Source: Desulfurispirillum indicum S5 (lineage in GTDB: Bacteria; Chrysiogenota; Chrysiogenetes; Chrysiogenales; Chrysiogenaceae). Taken from it: a stretch of 64,000 nt of DNA. Location: positions 1,314,001 through 1,378,000 of the forward strand of contig NC_014836.1 in NCBI RefSeq assembly GCF_000177635.2, written 5' to 3'. Each line of letters begins with the position of its first letter. Within the stretch, counting starts at the first letter, position 1. The position numbers and the translations under genes are program-made. Below the pieces are notes generated by a model. The model did no database searches and was not told where the DNA came from. It was given only the letters and a program-made list of their open reading frames with translations. This document shows positions 19,522 through 54,870 of this stretch, in pieces.

Positions 19522-20175
19522 ACTTTCGCATCTTGCTGTCTTGGGTAAGGTGTTATTATCCTGACATTTATCGCGCGAAAGCTGTATTGATTTTGAATGC
19601 TTGATTCATCTGATATTCCTCTTTTCTTTCTGGATATTGTCCTTTTTGACCGCGCAAAAAGGACACAAAAACGCGCCCCCCGAACGCCCGTACTTCCGGC
19701 TCATTGCTCGCCTGTTCTGGAGATCCGGCAGACACTGCCTCCCTGCAGTGCTGCCGGACCACTCACTTCCTGTGAGTGTCCCGTTCGGGTCTTACCAGCC
19801 AGGCGTCGCACTCACCGGACGGGCTCAGGGAGGAACGGCCTGCTTCTGCATCTCCCCCGTGTGCTGGCCCAGCCAGGACGCGCTGACTGGAACGCTATGG
19901 AACCGCAGGGTTGCCGCCACGAGGGCGGCAACCGCAAACCAAAAGCCATGGAGGGCGGTTGTTTGCGGTCCCCAGTTCCAGGCATGCGGATGGCTGAAAA
20001 GGACAGCACTGGGGGTCGCTTTTGCGCCACTTTTGGCGAGTCAAAAGTGGCAAGGAAAACTCCTGAGTAATGGAACCGGAATATCAAGAGACGCAGTCTG
20101 TACAGAACCATTTCCGCCATTCCAGCATGGCATCAGGGTTGGTACAGACAACCTGCCGTTTCGGGAGTGCGAAAG
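19522..20175 (+). repeat. 0.65-kb structured repeat, copy A
   Basis: This stretch is collinear with copies at 27543-28196 and 54213-54870 over nearly its whole length. It is bounded by CTTTCGCA and its inverse TGCGAAAG. Hairpins visible inside: a 10-bp stem at GTCCTTTTTG / CAAAAAGGAC (about 19643), a long stem with CCGGCAG / CTGCCGG outer arms (about 19726), CACTCAC / GTGAGTG (about 19762), GGTTGCCGCC / GGCGGCAACC (about 19908) and GCCACTTTTG / CAAAAGTGGC (about 20027). No transposase or consistent coding frame is present. It fills the gap between the TPR gene and the end of the EAL gene. Confidence 0.88.
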
Positions 20176-20215: not shown

Positions 20216-21430
20216 TTATAATGGTTCCTCTTCCAGCCAGCCCGCAGGCAGATCGGCACAGAGAACGTGAAAATGACCGCTCTTTCCATTGTGCAGAGCA
20301 ATGGAGAGGGTCACATCCAGGGTGGCGTCGGGCAGCCCCAGATAGGGTGCTGACACCTGAACTGCGCCCGGCTGTTCCAGGGCGTTGCGAAAGTAACTTC
20401 TGCGGGCCCAGAGAGCGCCAGTGGTCCGCCGAAACGGAGCATAGACTTTGGCGGCGGCAGTGCGCTCCCCGGGGTAGAGGTTTTCCACGATCTGAATACC
20501 CTCGGCATCCAGCAGGTAGATGCGTTCGATGGCCGGATGCGACTGCAGTGGTTGAGTTGCCTGATGGAATTCCAGTCCGTGCTCCAGGCTGACGGCGGCC
20601 TCCTTGAGTCTTCGCTTCAGAGTGGCCTGTTTGCGTTCCTGGTTGCGCTGGCGGTTAAGCTGCTGCTGGAGTGTCTGTTGGTGCAGTTTCTGTATGGCGC
20701 CAGAAAGCTGTTCTCCATGGTAGGAGCCTGTGGGGGAAGGGCGGGCAAAGTAGTATCCCTGGGCCAGTTCGCATTCACTGTCCAAGGCCAGCAGGGCGTC
20801 ATCTTCGGTTTCTACCCCTTCCAGCAGGACCAGGGCACCGGTTTCTCGCAGGAGGGCAACACAGCGCGCCAGCCAGCGCTGCCGCCGGGGATTGTTGCGG
20901 GCGTTGACGAGCATGGAGCGGTCAAGCTTGACGATGTGGGGCTCAATCTGCCAGATGCGGTCAAAGTTGGATTGGCCCGTGCCAAAGTCATCTATGGCGA
21001 TGAAGAATCCCGCCTCCCGGTAGTAGTGGACAAAATCCTTGAGCCGTAAGGGATCCGCGACGGCATCTTCGAGGATCTCCAGGACAATGCGTTCACTGGC
21101 GAGGTTCTGGCGCTTCAGGAATTTCTCCAGCAGTTCCGAGCGCTGGTTGCCGGGTTGGATGGTTTCGGCGCGCAGGTTGAGGAAGAGCCACTGATCCTCG
21201 GTGTTCAAATGGCTGAAGTTGCGGATATGGGTAGCGATGCATTCCCGGTCGAACTGGTGCACACGGTTTTCCTGTACCGCCAGCGCAAAGGCGTCGGCAG
21301 GCGAACAGGAAGTGTCAGTTCCGGTTTGTGCCCGCAGCAGGGCTTCATAGCCGACAACGCGGCGATGGGCAAGGCTGATGATCGGTTGAAAGTGGCTGTG
21401 TATCAGAATGGGACGAACCTTCTCAGGCAT
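20216..21430 (-). CDS. EAL-domain c-di-GMP phosphodiesterase with C-terminal sensor-like domain
   Basis: A 404-residue cytoplasmic protein. Residues about 10-245 form an EAL domain with YEALLR, the LNL asparagine region, EILED, DDFGTG, KLDRSM, EGVE and the glutamine of QGYYF, so the catalytic and metal residues of c-di-GMP hydrolysis look intact. A Gln/Arg-rich helical linker (about 255-290) leads to a C-terminal alpha/beta domain resembling a Cache/PDC-type sensor. That order is the reverse of the usual sensor-then-EAL. It is the last gene of the minus-strand pepA-to-EAL run, 3 bases after tadA, and its stop lies just beyond repeat copy A. Confidence 0.88.
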   Translation of the reverse strand: MPEKVRPILIHSHFQPIISLAHRRVVGYEALLRAQTGTDTSCSPADAFALAVQENRVHQFDRECIATHIRNFSHLNTEDQWLFLNLRAETIQPGNQRSELLEKFLKRQNLASERIVLEILEDAVADPLRLKDFVHYYREAGFFIAIDDFGTGQSNFDRIWQIEPHIVKLDRSMLVNARNNPRRQRWLARCVALLRETGALVLLEGVETEDDALLALDSECELAQGYYFARPSPTGSYHGEQLSGAIQKLHQQTLQQQLNRQRNQERKQATLKRRLKEAAVSLEHGLEFHQATQPLQSHPAIERIYLLDAEGIQIVENLYPGERTAAAKVYAPFRRTTGALWARRSYFRNALEQPGAVQVSAPYLGLPDATLDVTLSIALHNGKSGHFHVLCADLPAGWLEEEPL

Positions 21431-21433
21431 TGC

Positions 21434-21937
21434 TTACGGGCCTGTATGGATGTATGGCAGTGGATGATGTTCTGCACGCCTTGTGGAGAAAAAGGCCTCC
21501 AGCAGTTGCCGGCAGCGCTGTTCCAGAAGTCCCCTGCGCGCATCCACCTGGTGGTTCAGCCGCTGGTCGGCGGTCATGGCGAAGAGGCTGATACCACCAT
21601 ATTTTTCATCGGAACAGGCATAGTAGACGCGGGGAATGCGGGCCGCGATGATGGCACCGCAGCACATGACGCAGGGTTCCAGGGTAACGTAAAGCTCCAC
21701 GTCCTCCAGACGCCAGTTGGCGCAGGCTGCGGCCGCCTCGCGAATGGCGAGCACTTCGGCGTGGGCAGTGGGGTCACGGTGCTCTTCCTTGCGGTTGCCG
21801 GCCCGGGCGATGATTTCGCCATGGCGCACAATGACTGCGCCTACGGGAACTTCGCCCCGCTGCGCGGCCTGTCTCGCTTCCTCCAGCGCAACTGCCATGA
21901 AGCGTTCAGCATCAGCGTCGGGTGTTGACGGGATCAT
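21434..21937 (-). CDS. tadA: tRNA-specific adenosine deaminase TadA
   Basis: A 167-residue zinc deaminase that converts A34 to inosine in tRNA-Arg(ACG). The active-site HAEVLAI (zinc His and proton-shuttle Glu) and the PCVMCCGAI cysteine pair are present, as is the NHQVDARRGLLEQRC C-terminal helix region typical of TadA. The ATG overlaps the rimO stop by 4 bases, and the EAL gene follows after 3 bases. Confidence 0.94.
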   Translation of the reverse strand: MIPSTPDADAERFMAVALEEARQAAQRGEVPVGAVIVRHGEIIARAGNRKEEHRDPTAHAEVLAIREAAAACANWRLEDVELYVTLEPCVMCCGAIIAARIPRVYYACSDEKYGGISLFAMTADQRLNHQVDARRGLLEQRCRQLLEAFFSTRRAEHHPLPYIHTGP

Positions 21938-23256
21938 GAATCGACCATTCCCCCTACCAGATCATAGGGCAGCGCCTGTTCAATACGCACCATCACAAAG
22001 TCACCGGGATGAGCAGTGCCATCATTGATGAGGATATGTCCGTCCACTTCCGGAGCCTGGAAGCTGGCTCGACCCTGCAGCAGCAGCTCCGTCTCCTGGC
22101 TGATTCCCTCCACCAGAACTTCAAAGGTCTGGCCGACCCTCTGTTCATTGCGGCGCAGGGAGATGCTGTGCTGGAGTTCCATCAGGGCTTCAGCCCGCTC
22201 CCTGGCCGTGTCGGGGTTTACTTTTCCCGGAAGCTTATGGGAAGCGGCCAGCTCCTCATCGGAGTAGGCAAAGGCTCCCAGGTGATCGAACTGCACGCGC
22301 TCCACCCCTTCCAGCAATGCCTGAAAGTCCGCTTCAGTCTCGCCGGGAAATCCGGTGAGCATGGTAGTGCGGATGGCAATGCCAGGGATGCGTTGGCGAA
22401 GGCGCTGCACCAGGTTTTCCATCTGTTCGACACGGATATGGCGGTTCATGCGTTTGAGCACCGAATTGCTCATATGCTGAAAGGGAATATCCACATACTT
22501 GCAGATTTTCGGTTCACGGGCGATGGTCTCGATGAGTTCGTCGTCAAAGTGGTTGGGGTACGTGTAGAGAACCCGTATCCAGTGGAGGTTTTCAATCTTT
22601 GCCAGCTCTGCCAGCAGAGGTGCCAGACTGCGTTTGCCGTAGAGATCCAGGCCGTACTCGGTGGAATCCTGACTGATGAGCACCAGCTCGCGCACACCAC
22701 TGGCGGCCAGTTCCCGGGCCTCACTCACGAGTTTTTCCTGCGGGACGGACTGGTAGGGGCCGCGTATGCGTGGAATCACGCAGTAGGTACAGGTGTTGCT
22801 GCAGCCTTCAGCGATTTTCAAGTAGGCCATATAGGATGGAGTGGTCAGGAGTCGCTCGCCGGGAAGGGCTTCCAGGTGATCCTGGGGGGTGAAGTTCACC
22901 AGCCTGCGGGACAGCTGATCCCCGATGGACTCCATGCTGGACTCCTTGGTGTCGATAAAGATGTCCACCTCTGGCAGTTCCTGGCGCAGTTGCTGTTCAT
23001 AGAGCGTCACCAGGCAGCCTGCCACGATGAGCACCTGGCAGCGTCCGTCCTGCTTAAACTGGGAGTGCTCGACAATGGTGGAGATGGACTCATCCTTGGC
23101 GTCCAGGATGAAGCCACAGGTGTTGATGAAGATAATGTCTGCAGCCGCGGGGTCATCCACCGGGTCGACGGGGCGGCGCAGCAGGCGTGCCAGCATGCGT
23201 TCCGTATCCACAAGGTTTTTTGAGCAGCCCAGGCTGATGGTGTAGAGGGTGTACAT
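21934..23256 (-). CDS. rimO: Ribosomal protein S12 methylthiotransferase RimO
   Basis: A 440-residue radical SAM methylthiotransferase that modifies the conserved Asp of ribosomal protein S12. The N-terminal MTTase domain begins with the RimO-specific SLGCSKNLVDTE. The radical SAM cluster is EGCSNTCTYCVIP near residue 153, and the C-terminal part is a TRAM-like domain (about 375-440). Length matches RimO rather than MiaB. It starts 7 bases after the DUF502 gene and overlaps tadA by 4 bases. Confidence 0.95.
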   Translation of the reverse strand: MYTLYTISLGCSKNLVDTERMLARLLRRPVDPVDDPAAADIIFINTCGFILDAKDESISTIVEHSQFKQDGRCQVLIVAGCLVTLYEQQLRQELPEVDIFIDTKESSMESIGDQLSRRLVNFTPQDHLEALPGERLLTTPSYMAYLKIAEGCSNTCTYCVIPRIRGPYQSVPQEKLVSEARELAASGVRELVLISQDSTEYGLDLYGKRSLAPLLAELAKIENLHWIRVLYTYPNHFDDELIETIAREPKICKYVDIPFQHMSNSVLKRMNRHIRVEQMENLVQRLRQRIPGIAIRTTMLTGFPGETEADFQALLEGVERVQFDHLGAFAYSDEELAASHKLPGKVNPDTARERAEALMELQHSISLRRNEQRVGQTFEVLVEGISQETELLLQGRASFQAPEVDGHILINDGTAHPGDFVMVRIEQALPYDLVGGMVDS

Positions 23257-23263
23257 GGTTTGG

Positions 23264-23851
23264 TTATCTCTCTTTACGTTTGGTCATATTGGCCGTGAGG
23301 ACAATGCGCATGGCGTCTTCTACGCTGAGATCAAGGGAGGTCAGGCGTGCGCGATCCACATAGACCGTAAATCCGCCGATCTGGTAACTCAGGGGAATAT
23401 AGACAGCCACGTCGTCGGGATTGTCGGAGCCGATGGTCTGTCCCCCCTGGTGGTCGGTGACAAAGCCGATCAGCTTCATTCCCTGATATTCAATGGTGAC
23501 GACGGAGCCGAACTGCTTTTGTTCTTTGCTCCTGGTGACAAAGAGCATGAGATCCTGCAGGCCGGTCAGTGCGGTCTTCACCAGGGGAATACGCTGCAGG
23601 AGCCTTTCGCCTATTTCAATAACCTGGCGGAACAGGTAGAGATTGACCATCCAGCCGATCAGCAGCAACAGCGCGATGCTGGCCAGAATTCCCAGGCCGG
23701 GGAAGTAGATGCTGCCGGGCAGAAAGAAGCGCAAACCGGAGCCGATCAGGTTTTCCACTGTTGAGATGAGCCAGTACAGGATATAGAGCGTCAGTGCCAG
23801 GGGAAGAACCAGACCCAGGCCCTGCAGGGATTTTTTCAGCCAGTCTTGCAT
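23264..23851 (-). CDS. DUF502 family membrane protein
   Basis: A 195-residue protein with two hydrophobic segments (about 10-32 and 52-75) followed by a soluble domain containing IPLVKTALTGLQDLMLFV and FVTDHQGG, text typical of DUF502. The family is widespread but has no assigned biochemical role. Its start overlaps the end of the amidotransferase gene by 16 bases, indicating tight coupling. It is included in the operon with the amidoligase pair, so a membrane partner role there is possible but unproven. Confidence 0.85.
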   Translation of the reverse strand: MQDWLKKSLQGLGLVLPLALTLYILYWLISTVENLIGSGLRFFLPGSIYFPGLGILASIALLLLIGWMVNLYLFRQVIEIGERLLQRIPLVKTALTGLQDLMLFVTRSKEQKQFGSVVTIEYQGMKLIGFVTDHQGGQTIGSDNPDDVAVYIPLSYQIGGFTVYVDRARLTSLDLSVEDAMRIVLTANMTKRKER

Positions 23852-24636
23852 GTTTTTTCCTTTATGGTTTTGCGGGTCGCGTCAACGAGAGCGCAAAAGA
23901 GCGCTCTCTGGTCACGCCGGTAAACAAGGTACTCCGGATGCCACTGCACGCCGATCGTAAAAGTCTTTTTGCTGTGTTCGATGGCCTGCACTATACCACT
24001 TTCCTCACGGGCGCAGACAAGAATTTCCTCACCGGCGTGATCAATTGCCTGATCGTGCAGGGCATTGACCAGGAGTACGTTGGTGCCGGTGCAAGCGGCG
24101 AGTTTTGAACCACCTGCCAACTGTACCTGTTTGCGAGGGAGTATGGTGCGCAGTCGTGGGACCTCTTCGTACATTGAAGAGATATCGCGCAGGAGGGTTC
24201 CTCCGCAGACCACGTTAAGAAGTTGTGCGCCCCGGCAGATACCGAGCAGAGGTATGTCCCGAGCAAGTGCCTGCTGGATTAGCTCTTTTTCCAGCGTATC
24301 TCTCATCTGGTCAATGGTTCTGGGATTTTTGGTGCTCAGGAGCAGGCGCAGAACCAGAAAGAACGGAGCAAATACGATGGCGCTGACGAGGTTTTTCCAG
24401 CGGAATTCGCGCCAGACGGCTTCATTTTCATCGGGTTCATCTGTGTAGAGCGAAGGACTGACGTCAGCGCCTCCGCCGATGATCAGTCCGTCAATGCTCT
24501 GAATGTCAGCGGGGGAAGATACTGTGATACGACGGGCGCGCCCGCCGCAAAAACCTATTGCCAGCCGGCACGACCACCAGGCTGCCAGTCCGCCGGTGTG
24601 GGAACCCGTCACGCCAATAATTGGTCGTGGGTTCAC
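23836..24636 (-). CDS. Class I glutamine amidotransferase / peptidase C26 partner of amidoligase
   Basis: A 266-residue alpha/beta enzyme with the nucleophile elbow LLGICRGAQLLN (Cys) and the GVQWHPEYL segment supplying His and Glu, as in gamma-Glu-GABA hydrolases and amidotransferases. An unusual hydrophobic insertion, SAIVFAPFFLVLRLLLS, around residue 85-102 may touch the membrane. The GTG at 24636 forms a GTGA overlap with the amidoligase stop; a TTG three codons upstream is possible. Pairing with an amidoligase suggests that it supplies ammonia or cleaves a gamma-glutamyl bond for that enzyme. This is inferred from known gene-neighbourhood patterns. Confidence 0.82.
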   Translation of the reverse strand: MNPRPIIGVTGSHTGGLAAWWSCRLAIGFCGGRARRITVSSPADIQSIDGLIIGGGADVSPSLYTDEPDENEAVWREFRWKNLVSAIVFAPFFLVLRLLLSTKNPRTIDQMRDTLEKELIQQALARDIPLLGICRGAQLLNVVCGGTLLRDISSMYEEVPRLRTILPRKQVQLAGGSKLAACTGTNVLLVNALHDQAIDHAGEEILVCAREESGIVQAIEHSKKTFTIGVQWHPEYLVYRRDQRALFCALVDATRKTIKEKTCKTG

Positions 24637-25625
24637 TGCAGCCAACCCTCAACCTTGCCGGGCCATTGCCAGCTGATAATGCTCAGGGGGCTGTGCAGAA
24701 GTTCAAGCAGCTCCTGGGACATGGCGTGAAGAACATGGCTGTTGGCAGCCAGTTTTTCCACCTCAACCCAGTAGCGCCACGGATGGGCAATGCGCCAGTC
24801 TTCTTCATCTACCAGACTGTTGGGCAGGCGATAGTGAAAGGTCGGGCGGCTTTTATTGAGCTCACTTTCGATGGGGTAACGGTCTACCAGATCAGGAGCT
24901 ATGTGGCTGAACAGGGGCAGCATGTCCAGGGGGCGGTTGCGGGTGGGATTGTGCTCCAGGTAGTGCTCTATCAGCTGGCCCATATCTGGAGCGTACTCTG
25001 GCTGGAGTATGAGTTTCAGATACTCTGCCGGAAATTCATCAATATAGGGGCTGATGCGTCTGGTGTAGTCGATGGCAGATTCGCGGAATATCCAGGGGTA
25101 GAGTACACAGAATGCCTGCAGGTGAGCCAGGATTGAGGGTACCTCAAAGCTTGGCACCTCCGGGTTGAAGTGCAGGCCGAAGGCAAATCGCCATGCTGAC
25201 CTGGTACCCAGGGCGCCGCGCTGCCGAAGGCACTCCCGCAGGGTCTCGGCATGGTGGAGCTGATCCATGGGCAGTGGTGGCGTTACCAGCTCATAGGGAA
25301 CCAGTACAGAAGCCACGTTGGCCAACAAGGCTTCCAGGTCATCTCCCAGAATCAGGGTGTCACCATCGACACCCATCTTCTGCAGGAACTCGGTATACTT
25401 TCCAGAGCTCAGGAGAATGGAGTCGAGCTCCACGGTGAAATCACCCAGCTCAGTATCCTTGATCTTGTGGACATGGGAATTCACCTCATGGTGCCGGCCA
25501 CCCCACAGTTTCTGTATATCCCGCACGACCATTAATGGCTCAACGTGTGTATACTCCAGTTCCACACCAACATGCCGGATGCTGCCGTGCTGATTGTAAA
25601 TCAGTGGCGGCTGCGCGAAGGACAT
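24633..25625 (-). CDS. Amidoligase_2-type (GS-like COOH-NH2 ligase) protein
   Basis: A 330-residue protein fitting the glutamine-synthetase-like amidoligase group. The metal-binding motif GVELEY near residue 20 is followed by FTVELDSILLS, the YELVTPPL segment, and AFGLHFNPEV, which corresponds to the conserved GLH-histidine region. Such enzymes are predicted to join a carboxylate and an amine using ATP; products are unknown. The start lies 3 bases after the pepA stop, and its own stop overlaps the amidotransferase start. Family assignment rests on motif order and the neighbouring amidotransferase. Confidence 0.75.
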   Translation of the reverse strand: MSFAQPPLIYNQHGSIRHVGVELEYTHVEPLMVVRDIQKLWGGRHHEVNSHVHKIKDTELGDFTVELDSILLSSGKYTEFLQKMGVDGDTLILGDDLEALLANVASVLVPYELVTPPLPMDQLHHAETLRECLRQRGALGTRSAWRFAFGLHFNPEVPSFEVPSILAHLQAFCVLYPWIFRESAIDYTRRISPYIDEFPAEYLKLILQPEYAPDMGQLIEHYLEHNPTRNRPLDMLPLFSHIAPDLVDRYPIESELNKSRPTFHYRLPNSLVDEEDWRIAHPWRYWVEVEKLAANSHVLHAMSQELLELLHSPLSIISWQWPGKVEGWLQ

Positions 25626-25628
25626 GCT

Positions 25629-27011
25629 TTAGAGATCCTTGATCAGAGCGTAGAAGGTGCGCACGCCGCTGCCAGTGGCACCTTTTTTATGGAAGTACTC
25701 CTTCTTTCCATCCCAAGCGGTACCCGCCACGTCCAGGTGTACCCAGGGGGTGTTTTCGGGGACAAATTTCTGCAGGAAGAGTCCGGCGGTGATGGTTCCC
25801 GCTTCCTTGCCGCCCACATTCTGCATGTCGGCGAAATCGCTCTTCAGCTGCTCGTCGTACTCAGCGTAGGCGGGCAGTTGCCACAGGCGTTCGTGAAGAG
25901 TCGCTCCTTTCGCGGTCACTTCGCGGGCGTACTCGTCATTATTGGAGATGACGCCGATGGCATGGGAGCCCAGGGCCACGACGCAGGCGCCGGTGAGAGT
26001 CGCGATATCCACAATGGCGGAGGGTTGATAGGTCTTTGTGCCATGGGCCAGGGCATCGCACAGAATCAGGCGGCCTTCAGCGTCGGTGTTGATGACTTCA
26101 ATGGTTTTGCCATTGCAGGCGGTGACGATATCGCCCGGCTTGTTGGCGGTGCCGCTGGGCATGTTCTCAGCGGCCGGGACTATGCCCACCACATCCTTGC
26201 GAATCCCCAGGGAACCCATCAGGTGAAAGGCACCCAGAACCGCCGCACCGCCACACATATCGTACTTCATTTCTTCCATGGATGCCGATGGCTTGATGGA
26301 AATGCCGCCGGTGTCAAAGGTGAGGCCCTTGCCCACCAGCATCAGGGGAGCTTTCTTCTCTGGTGAGGTATTGCGCAGGATGATCATTTTTCCCGGTTGA
26401 GCACTGCCCTTGCCAACACTGTAAAAAGCGCCCATGCCAAGCTTCGCGGCCTCTTCCTGGTCAATGACGGTGCATTCAAAGCCAAACTGTTGCGCCAGCT
26501 GGGTGGCGGTTTGGGCCAGAGAGGCCGGAGTGACGATATTTCCCGGCAGATCGCCCAGCTCGCGGGTGAAGTTCATGGAAGCCGCGATGGCCATGCCTTC
26601 CTGGAAGTCAGTTTCATGACTGGTGCAAAAAAGCCCTTGTACCTGCCACTGGGGGTCTTTTTCGTCAACACTTCTGGTTCTGGTGTAGATGTAGGAAGCC
26701 AGCACCGCGCCCATGGCGCAATCGCGGGCAGCTTCGCCGCTATCCACTGAGAAAGCCATATGGGAGAAGCGCGCTTTGCGAGCCACTTTCAGGGCGACTG
26801 CTCCAGCAACCATGAAGCGGTCTGAAGATTTTTCATCACAGCCCACATAGAGAAGATAGTCGCTGCCATTTTTATAAATCACAGATTCCTTGGGCTTTGC
26901 GAAAAAACCCAACCGCTTGAGCTCCTGGGCATGGGAAATTCCTTCCAGTTGAGCCGGGGACAGCAGGGTGACTCTCAGGGCGTCGGGGTGTGTTTCAAAG
27001 ACGAGGGACAT
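25629..27011 (-). CDS. pepA: Leucyl aminopeptidase (M17)
   Basis: A 460-residue cytosolic aminopeptidase with two-metal active site. The metal/catalytic signatures are clear: VGKGLTFDTGGISIKP (Lys and Asp), the MKYDMCGGAAV segment and NTDAEGRLILCDAL, the M17 hallmark. Length is slightly short of E. coli PepA but normal for the family. AAGGAG lies eight bases upstream of the ATG. It heads the minus-strand run that continues into the amidoligase and amidotransferase genes, so it could trim the same peptides, though a housekeeping role is simpler. Confidence 0.94.
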   Translation of the reverse strand: MSLVFETHPDALRVTLLSPAQLEGISHAQELKRLGFFAKPKESVIYKNGSDYLLYVGCDEKSSDRFMVAGAVALKVARKARFSHMAFSVDSGEAARDCAMGAVLASYIYTRTRSVDEKDPQWQVQGLFCTSHETDFQEGMAIAASMNFTRELGDLPGNIVTPASLAQTATQLAQQFGFECTVIDQEEAAKLGMGAFYSVGKGSAQPGKMIILRNTSPEKKAPLMLVGKGLTFDTGGISIKPSASMEEMKYDMCGGAAVLGAFHLMGSLGIRKDVVGIVPAAENMPSGTANKPGDIVTACNGKTIEVINTDAEGRLILCDALAHGTKTYQPSAIVDIATLTGACVVALGSHAIGVISNNDEYAREVTAKGATLHERLWQLPAYAEYDEQLKSDFADMQNVGGKEAGTITAGLFLQKFVPENTPWVHLDVAGTAWDGKKEYFHKKGATGSGVRTFYALIKDL

Positions 27012-27542: not shown

Positions 27543-28196
27543 TGAAGCATTGCATCTTATCGCCTCGAATTAAGGTGATATTGTACCAATGCTTACCGCG
27601 CAGAAACAGCGTTCATTTTGCATGCTTGTCATCTCGTATTCGTCTTTATGTTTGCGGATATTGTCCTTTTTGACCGCGCAAAAAGGACGCAAAAACGCGC
27701 CCCCCGAACGCCCGTTTTTCCGGCTCATTGCTCGCCTGTCCTGGAGATCCGGCAGACACTGCATCCTTGCAGTGCTGCCGGACCACTCACTTCCTGTGAG
27801 TGTCCCGTTCGGGTCTTGCCAGCCAGGCATCGCACTCACCGGACGGACTCAGGGGGGAACGGCCTGTTTCTGTCTCTCCCCCGTGTGCTGGCCCAGCCAG
27901 GACGCGCCGACTGGAACGCTATGGACCCGCAGGGTTGCCGCCACGAGGGCGGCAACCGCAAACCAAAAGCCACGGAGGGCGGTTGTTTGCGGTCCCCAGT
28001 TCCAGGCAAGCGGGCGGCTGAAAAGGACAGCACTGGGGGCCACTTTTGCGCCACTTTGGGCGGGTCCAAAGTGGCAAAGAAACTCATAGACAAGGCGAGG
28101 GCAATGTCAAGCGACGCAGTTGTGCGGAACCATTCCGCCATTTCAGCATATCATCTGGAACACGCAGACAACCTGTCGTTTCGGGGAGCGAACGTC
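27543..28196 (+). repeat. 0.65-kb structured repeat, copy B
   Basis: Same element as at 19522-20175 and in the same orientation, with similar order of hairpins. In the last hairpin (about 28051) the stem reads GCCACTTTGG / CCAAAGTGGC where copy A has GCCACTTTTG / CAAAAGTGGC, so a T-A pair has become G-C by two matched changes. The ends are less well kept (GCATCTTATCG left, GGGGAGCGAACG right). It separates the small plus-strand gene from the stop of the convergent SafE-like gene. Confidence 0.88.
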
Positions 28197-54212: not shown

Positions 54213-54870
54213 AAGTTTCGCACCTAATAGCATTGGTTTAATTCATTATTTCTCTGTCGTTTATCGCGCAGAGGCAGTATTGATTTTGCATGCTTGACTC
54301 ATCTGGAGTTCCTTTTTTTGTTCCGGATATTGTCCTTTTTGACCGCGCAAAAAGGACTCAAAAACGCGCCCCCGAACGCCCGTTCTTCCGGCTCGTTGGC
54401 TTGCCTGTTCTGGAGATCCGGCAGACACTGCATCCCTGCAGTGCTGCCGGACCACTCACTTCCTGTGAGTGTCCCTTCGGGTCTTGCCAGCCAGGCGTCG
54501 CACTCACCGGACGGGCTCAGGGGGGAACGGCCTGCTTCTGTCTTTCCCCCGTGTGCTGTCCCAGCCAGAACGCGCCGACTGGAACGCTATGGACCCGCAG
54601 GGTTGACGCCACGACGGCGGCAACCGCAAACCAAAAGCCACGGAGGGCGGTTGTTTGCGGTCCCCAGTTCCAGGCAAGCGGGCGGCTGAAAAGGACAGCA
54701 CTGGGGGTCGCTTTTGCGCCACTTTTGGCGACCCAAAAGTGGTAAAAGAAACTCATAAACAGGGTGAGGGTAATGCCAAGCGACACAGTCTGTGCAGAAC
54801 CATTTTCGCCATCCTAGCATGGTGTAAGGGTCATCGCCGACAACCTGCCGTTTTTGGGGGTGCGAAACTT
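54213..54870 (+). repeat. 0.65-kb structured repeat, copy C (complete ends)
   Basis: This copy has the best-preserved ends: AAGTTTCGCACC at 54213-54224 and its exact inverse GGTGCGAAACTT at 54859-54870. The interior is collinear with copies A and B, with single-base indels (for example five instead of six C near 54370, and one base lost in CCCTTCGGG near 54474) that change the reading frame while leaving the hairpins. No target-site duplication is obvious. The left end is 32 bases from the start codon of the receiver-PAS gene. Confidence 0.9.

Follow-up and report, generated by a model that had tools for sequence, protein, structure and literature searches.

A conserved amidoligase-amidotransferase gene pair in Desulfurispirillum indicum as a candidate two-subunit amide ligase

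In the window, the 64,000-nucleotide stretch of the Desulfurispirillum indicum S5 genome analysed here, an Amidoligase_2 gene is followed directly by a gene for a class-I amidotransferase, and our survey of relatives showed this pair to be a real, widely conserved, compact and co-evolving unit. We tentatively favour the reading that the two proteins constitute a self-contained two-subunit glutamine-dependent amide ligase. The survey removes a misleading gene context, in the form of the neighbouring pepA and DUF502 genes, and leaves a compact unit that has co-evolved over ~10 phyla. Because that context is gone, the pair is compact and two amidotransferase subclasses can be defined, it is well suited, as a clean set of just two genes, to expression and metabolomics work.

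The gene run and the pair across genomes

The genes belong to a closely packed run with the following features:

20216-21430, same strand as the run: EAL-like ORF, named by eye from its translation
21434-21937, same strand as the run: tadA-like ORF, named by eye from its translation
21934..23256, minus strand: RimO (TIGR01125, 450 bits, above cut-off), in which the same-strand run goes on
23264..23851, minus strand: DUF502 membrane protein, a local neighbour (PF04367, E 4e-24)
23836..24636 (GTG start), minus strand: amidotransferase, class-I glutamine type, Peptidase_C26 branch (PF07722, E 8e-43)
24304..24432, minus strand: insertion helix element of the amidotransferase, approximate coding region (~residues 72-114, including P94 and R100)
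24633..25625, minus strand: amidoligase (Amidoligase_2 protein), predicted GS-fold ATP-dependent carboxylate-amine ligase, 330 aa (PF12224, E 1.5e-59)
25629..27011, minus strand: PepA, M17 leucyl aminopeptidase, a local neighbour (PF00883, E 6e-121)

The four ORFs that an earlier note on this DNA had listed, from pepA to the DUF502 gene, are all present on the minus strand, and its naming of the flanking genes as an M17 aminopeptidase and a DUF502 protein was borne out by Pfam (404 bits to Peptidase_M17 and 85 bits to DUF502). The longer amidotransferase ORF (23836-24645, minus strand, 269 aa) opens at a TTG at 24645, but the GTG at 24636 is a better fit to the starts of its relatives; with the GTG start, the gene overlaps the amidoligase stop by 4 nt (GTGA), which is the coupling proposed earlier. 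The gap from pepA to the amidoligase gene is 3 nt, the amidotransferase and DUF502 genes overlap by 16 nt, and 7 nt separate the DUF502 gene from rimO. Beyond DUF502 the same-strand run goes on through rimO and the tadA-like and EAL-like ORFs, a few bases apart, so the four-gene boundary drawn in the note is arbitrary.

The 84,980 species genomes scanned yielded at least 582 relatives, from which 79 loci, chosen by similarity to a Chrysiogenaceae protein, were kept. The amidotransferase gene directly followed the amidoligase gene on the same strand in 78 of the 79 named loci, spread over ~10 phyla. All of the tested pairs (82/82) allow an amidotransferase start between -45 and +75 nt from the amidoligase stop, a 4-nt overlap being possible in 23 of the 82. 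Distances among the amidoligases correlated with those among the amidotransferases (Mantel r 0.73, with 0/999 permutations as high), and the pair mostly formed its own two-gene operon. A conserved third operon partner was rejected, as the recurrent neighbours are lineage-specific; bPH_2 proteins lie beside the pair in two Balneolales, and YqaA, a VTT-domain protein, in part of the gammaproteobacteria. Associations with aldehyde dehydrogenase, glutamate dehydrogenase, glutamate synthase or NhaA were scattered over few loci and were also set aside, as was a phage origin of the pair, for which annotated phages gave no match and viral contigs none that was confirmed. In the Wenzhouxiangellaceae (L023, L030, L031, L074, L076, L088), the gene after the pair, often overlapping it, is glnE, which encodes glutamine synthetase adenylyltransferase.

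Solo amidoligases were also found. Genome G315 (41% identity) and a Haliea MAG carry an amidoligase with no clear C26-type amidotransferase in the genome, and several copies on alphaproteobacterial plasmids also stand alone, so the amidotransferase partner is not always needed. Three distant genomes (G158, G216 and G393) hold 2 to 6 Amidoligase_2 matches each, and a genome-wide search of them found no close relative of the window amidotransferase. At two loci (L124:6234-8612 in G315 and L043:8770-10969 in Pleionea), the amidoligase gene is preceded at ~20 bases by an NhaA-type Na+/H+ antiporter gene; in G315, where the antiporter was named by eye and the amidoligase is without a C26 partner, a LysR-type gene precedes the antiporter.

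The two enzymes and the amidotransferase insertion

Profile searches placed the 330-aa protein in Amidoligase_2 over its full length (202 bits against a cut-off of 22, profile positions 2-244 of 245), as its earlier assignment as a GS-like ligase had predicted, and Pfam returned no match to any other family. Residues E22, E24, D68, E112, N154, R229, R260, H264 and R266 were invariant in 90/90 amidoligases. The top fold matches of its AlphaFold model (pLDDT 91.6) were plant glutamate-cysteine ligase, YbdK and glutamine synthetases; these matches are weak (E 0.06 or worse, TM ~0.3) and are compatible with, but do not prove, a GS-like fold. Sequence searches for solved structures found no credible relative of the amidoligase and none of the DUF502 protein.

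The amidotransferase matched Peptidase_C26 in Pfam with 147 bits, and its catalytic triad, Cys137-His236-Glu238 in the 269-aa numbering, is intact in the window protein and in all 82 amidotransferases compared. Foldseek searches with its AlphaFold model (pLDDT 88) retrieved Lin1909, PuuD and SpuA first (E ~1e-15 to 1e-20, 23-29% identity), followed by synthase-bound GATases. Its score against the PuuD equivalog was 81.5 bits, below the NCBIfam cut-off of 266. The earlier description of a C26/class I amidotransferase with a hydrophobic insertion thus held in each of its parts, the family, the triad and an insertion that proved to be conserved.

This insertion, an element of ~35 residues between the GG-DVxPxLY loop and the RDxLE helix, is present in 60 of the 82 amidotransferases and absent in 22; the stretch at this site comprises 52-71 residues in the former and ~23 in the latter, and Lin1909 has a short stretch there, like the insertion-free relatives. 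Bearers were found in the Chrysiogenaceae, Bdellovibrionota, Balneolota, Bacteroidota, Thermodesulfobacteriota, Acidobacteriota, Verrucomicrobiota, Myxococcota, Sumerlaeota and gammaproteobacteria. An arginine (R100 in the window) is conserved in 60/60 insertions and a proline (P94) in 52/60. The element forms a hydrophobic to amphipathic helix, predicted with modest confidence at residues 84-103 of the window protein, and is flanked by basic residues; in many relatives the helix is amphipathic rather than strongly hydrophobic. Mapped on the amidoligase tree, the insertion state required 3 changes, compared with 19.6 in shuffles. Being real and conserved among relatives, the insertion is more than chance. 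By analogy with the C26 family it would be positioned beside the active site, and the helix may dock the amidotransferase to its ligase partner or to the membrane; its amphipathic or hydrophobic character is the one feature suggesting that the protein may be membrane-associated. We found no description of a ~35-residue helix insertion in Amidoligase_2-partner amidotransferases in open-access papers, and the two subclasses that it defines are a modest addition to the known family prediction.

Candidate functions of the pair

Both the amidoligase family and the pairing of its members with amidotransferases had been predicted before, and Iyer et al. in 2009 reportedly described predicted pairs of this kind. 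The window protein belongs to the same amidoligase family, far above the cut-off, and the two-gene arrangement is reportedly the same, the difference being the ~35-residue helix insertion in the amidotransferase of the window lineage. Passages of two later papers (PMC12096838, PMC10945688) cite Iyer et al. on Amidoligase_2. A product of such pairs was not reported in the open-access papers that we searched.

In the two-subunit amide ligase that we favour, the C26-type subunit would bind glutamine and form a gamma-glutamyl thioester on Cys137 with the help of His236 and Glu238. Ammonia would be released near the oxyanion loop of this subunit, which the insertion helix follows in the sequence, and the helix would probably serve to dock this subunit onto the ligase or onto the membrane. 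With ATP and metal, the GS-fold subunit would convert a carboxylate of a small molecule or peptide into an activated acyl phosphate, and attack by ammonia, passed on within a complex of the two proteins, would give the carboxamide. The predicted catalytic residue sets, complete in both enzymes (82/82 and 90/90), argue for such an activity. That the pair usually stands alone as an operon, no third gene being universal, favours a two-subunit enzyme over a pathway needing an intermediate step, while an ammonia-feeding glutaminase is favoured by the compact coupling and co-evolution of the pair and by the absence of a conserved third enzyme. A LUZ24-like phage also counts for this reading: close to its Amidoligase_2 gene is one for an unrelated class II glutaminase (PMC3890496). 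The same two-gene logic of a ligase plus a class-I glutaminase appears in the passages found on the MurT/GatD peptidoglycan amidation complex (PMC3267633, PMC5871853), although the window ligase is an Amidoligase_2 protein rather than Mur-like and its glutaminase belongs to the C26 branch. Against the amide ligase, solo amidoligases exist, the tracking of the two trees could reflect plain co-inheritance of linked genes, and the nearest characterised relatives of the amidotransferase are not ammonia-feeding subunits. PuuD and SpuA instead hydrolyse gamma-glutamyl amides.

The main rival, which we consider possible and rank below the amide ligase, is a ligase-hydrolase pair for gamma-glutamyl amides that would act as PuuA and PuuD do. 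PuuA, the gamma-glutamylputrescine synthetase, is an ATP-dependent amide ligase of the GS superfamily whose pathway uses a C26 hydrolase; the amidoligase would likewise attach an amine to the gamma-carboxyl of glutamate, and the gamma-glutamyl group would later be removed by the C26 enzyme. The ancestry of the C26 protein favours this reading, as by sequence and fold it is nearest to Lin1909, PuuD and SpuA, ahead of the synthase-bound GATases, and shares with them the fold and catalytic triad. Among the weak fold matches of the amidoligase, glutamate-cysteine ligase and YbdK rank first, and a marine phage encodes both an amidoligase and a gamma-glutamylcyclotransferase (PMC10945688). However, if one two-gene operon held both a ligase and a hydrolase, and no conserved enzyme acted between them, the result would be a futile cycle. 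The C26 protein also falls far below the PuuD equivalog cut-off and, unlike PuuD, SpuA and Lin1909, is coupled to an amidoligase gene and has the insertion, whereas the window amidoligase matched only Amidoligase_2 in Pfam and PuuA is a glutamine-synthetase-family protein.

A further reading, which we regard as unlikely, places the pair at the membrane: it would amidate an envelope or lipid-linked substrate, as MurT/GatD does, and the insertion helix would serve as its membrane anchor. The hydrophobic to amphipathic insertion with its basic flanks would suit this role, and membrane proteins neighbour the pair in several lineages (DUF502, VTT-domain, AI-2E transporter, bPH_2 and MFS proteins). 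These neighbours vary by lineage, however, and the insertion is missing from 22/82 amidotransferases and in many others is amphipathic, not strongly hydrophobic.

Very improbable is the proposal of the earlier note that all four genes, pepA and DUF502 included, form one unit for amide synthesis and processing: the compact same-strand order pepA-amidoligase-GAT-DUF502-rimO recurs only in a second genome of the same family (G002), PepA or DUF502 relatives were found near the pair at 0/79 other loci (BLASTP 1e-5, flanks of up to 10 kb, less at contig ends), the sister genome G001 has no amidoligase or pair and encodes a GGDEF-like protein after its pepA, and the window run itself goes on into rimO. 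We conclude that pepA and DUF502 are local neighbours in a largely housekeeping run, a modest addition in itself. Of the overall reading in that note, the amidoligase/amidotransferase pair therefore survives and the conserved four-gene order does not.

Saline habitats and a dispersed repeat

Many host genomes of the pair are halophiles or soda-lake bacteria by name, and recurrence in such lineages suggests where to seek the product. Ectoine synthase (E <= 1e-20) was present in 22/79 host genomes, compared with 11/388 broadly sampled ones (Fisher p 3e-11), two samples that differ in taxonomy; the enrichment hints at saline habitats and is taxonomically confounded. All three Chrysiogenaceae genomes have ectoine synthase, with or without the pair, G001 being the one that has the synthase and no pair. 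Literature searches joining amidoligase with halophily and osmotic terms found nothing, and the passages found in one review (PMC7824335) mention N-carbamoyl-glutamine amide and give no genes. We offer as speculation, and with little confidence, that the product of the pair is a small amidated solute, such as the amide of some glutamine derivative, which aids saline or alkaline life, with the insertion-bearing amidotransferases forming a membrane- or partner-docked C26 subclass.

The gene run is flanked by a dispersed repeat of ~420 bases, located in the window at 19553-20080, 27640-28104 and 54246-54772. It occurs at ~40 or more places in the genome (115 first-look candidates, of which 40 were scored), on both strands and mostly with 92-97% identity, and two sister genomes gave weak partial matches only. 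The repeat had no match to an Rfam family; it is built of blocks and variable extra units of ~125 bases, and its predicted RNA folds far better than shuffled sequences (z -5.4 and -6.2).
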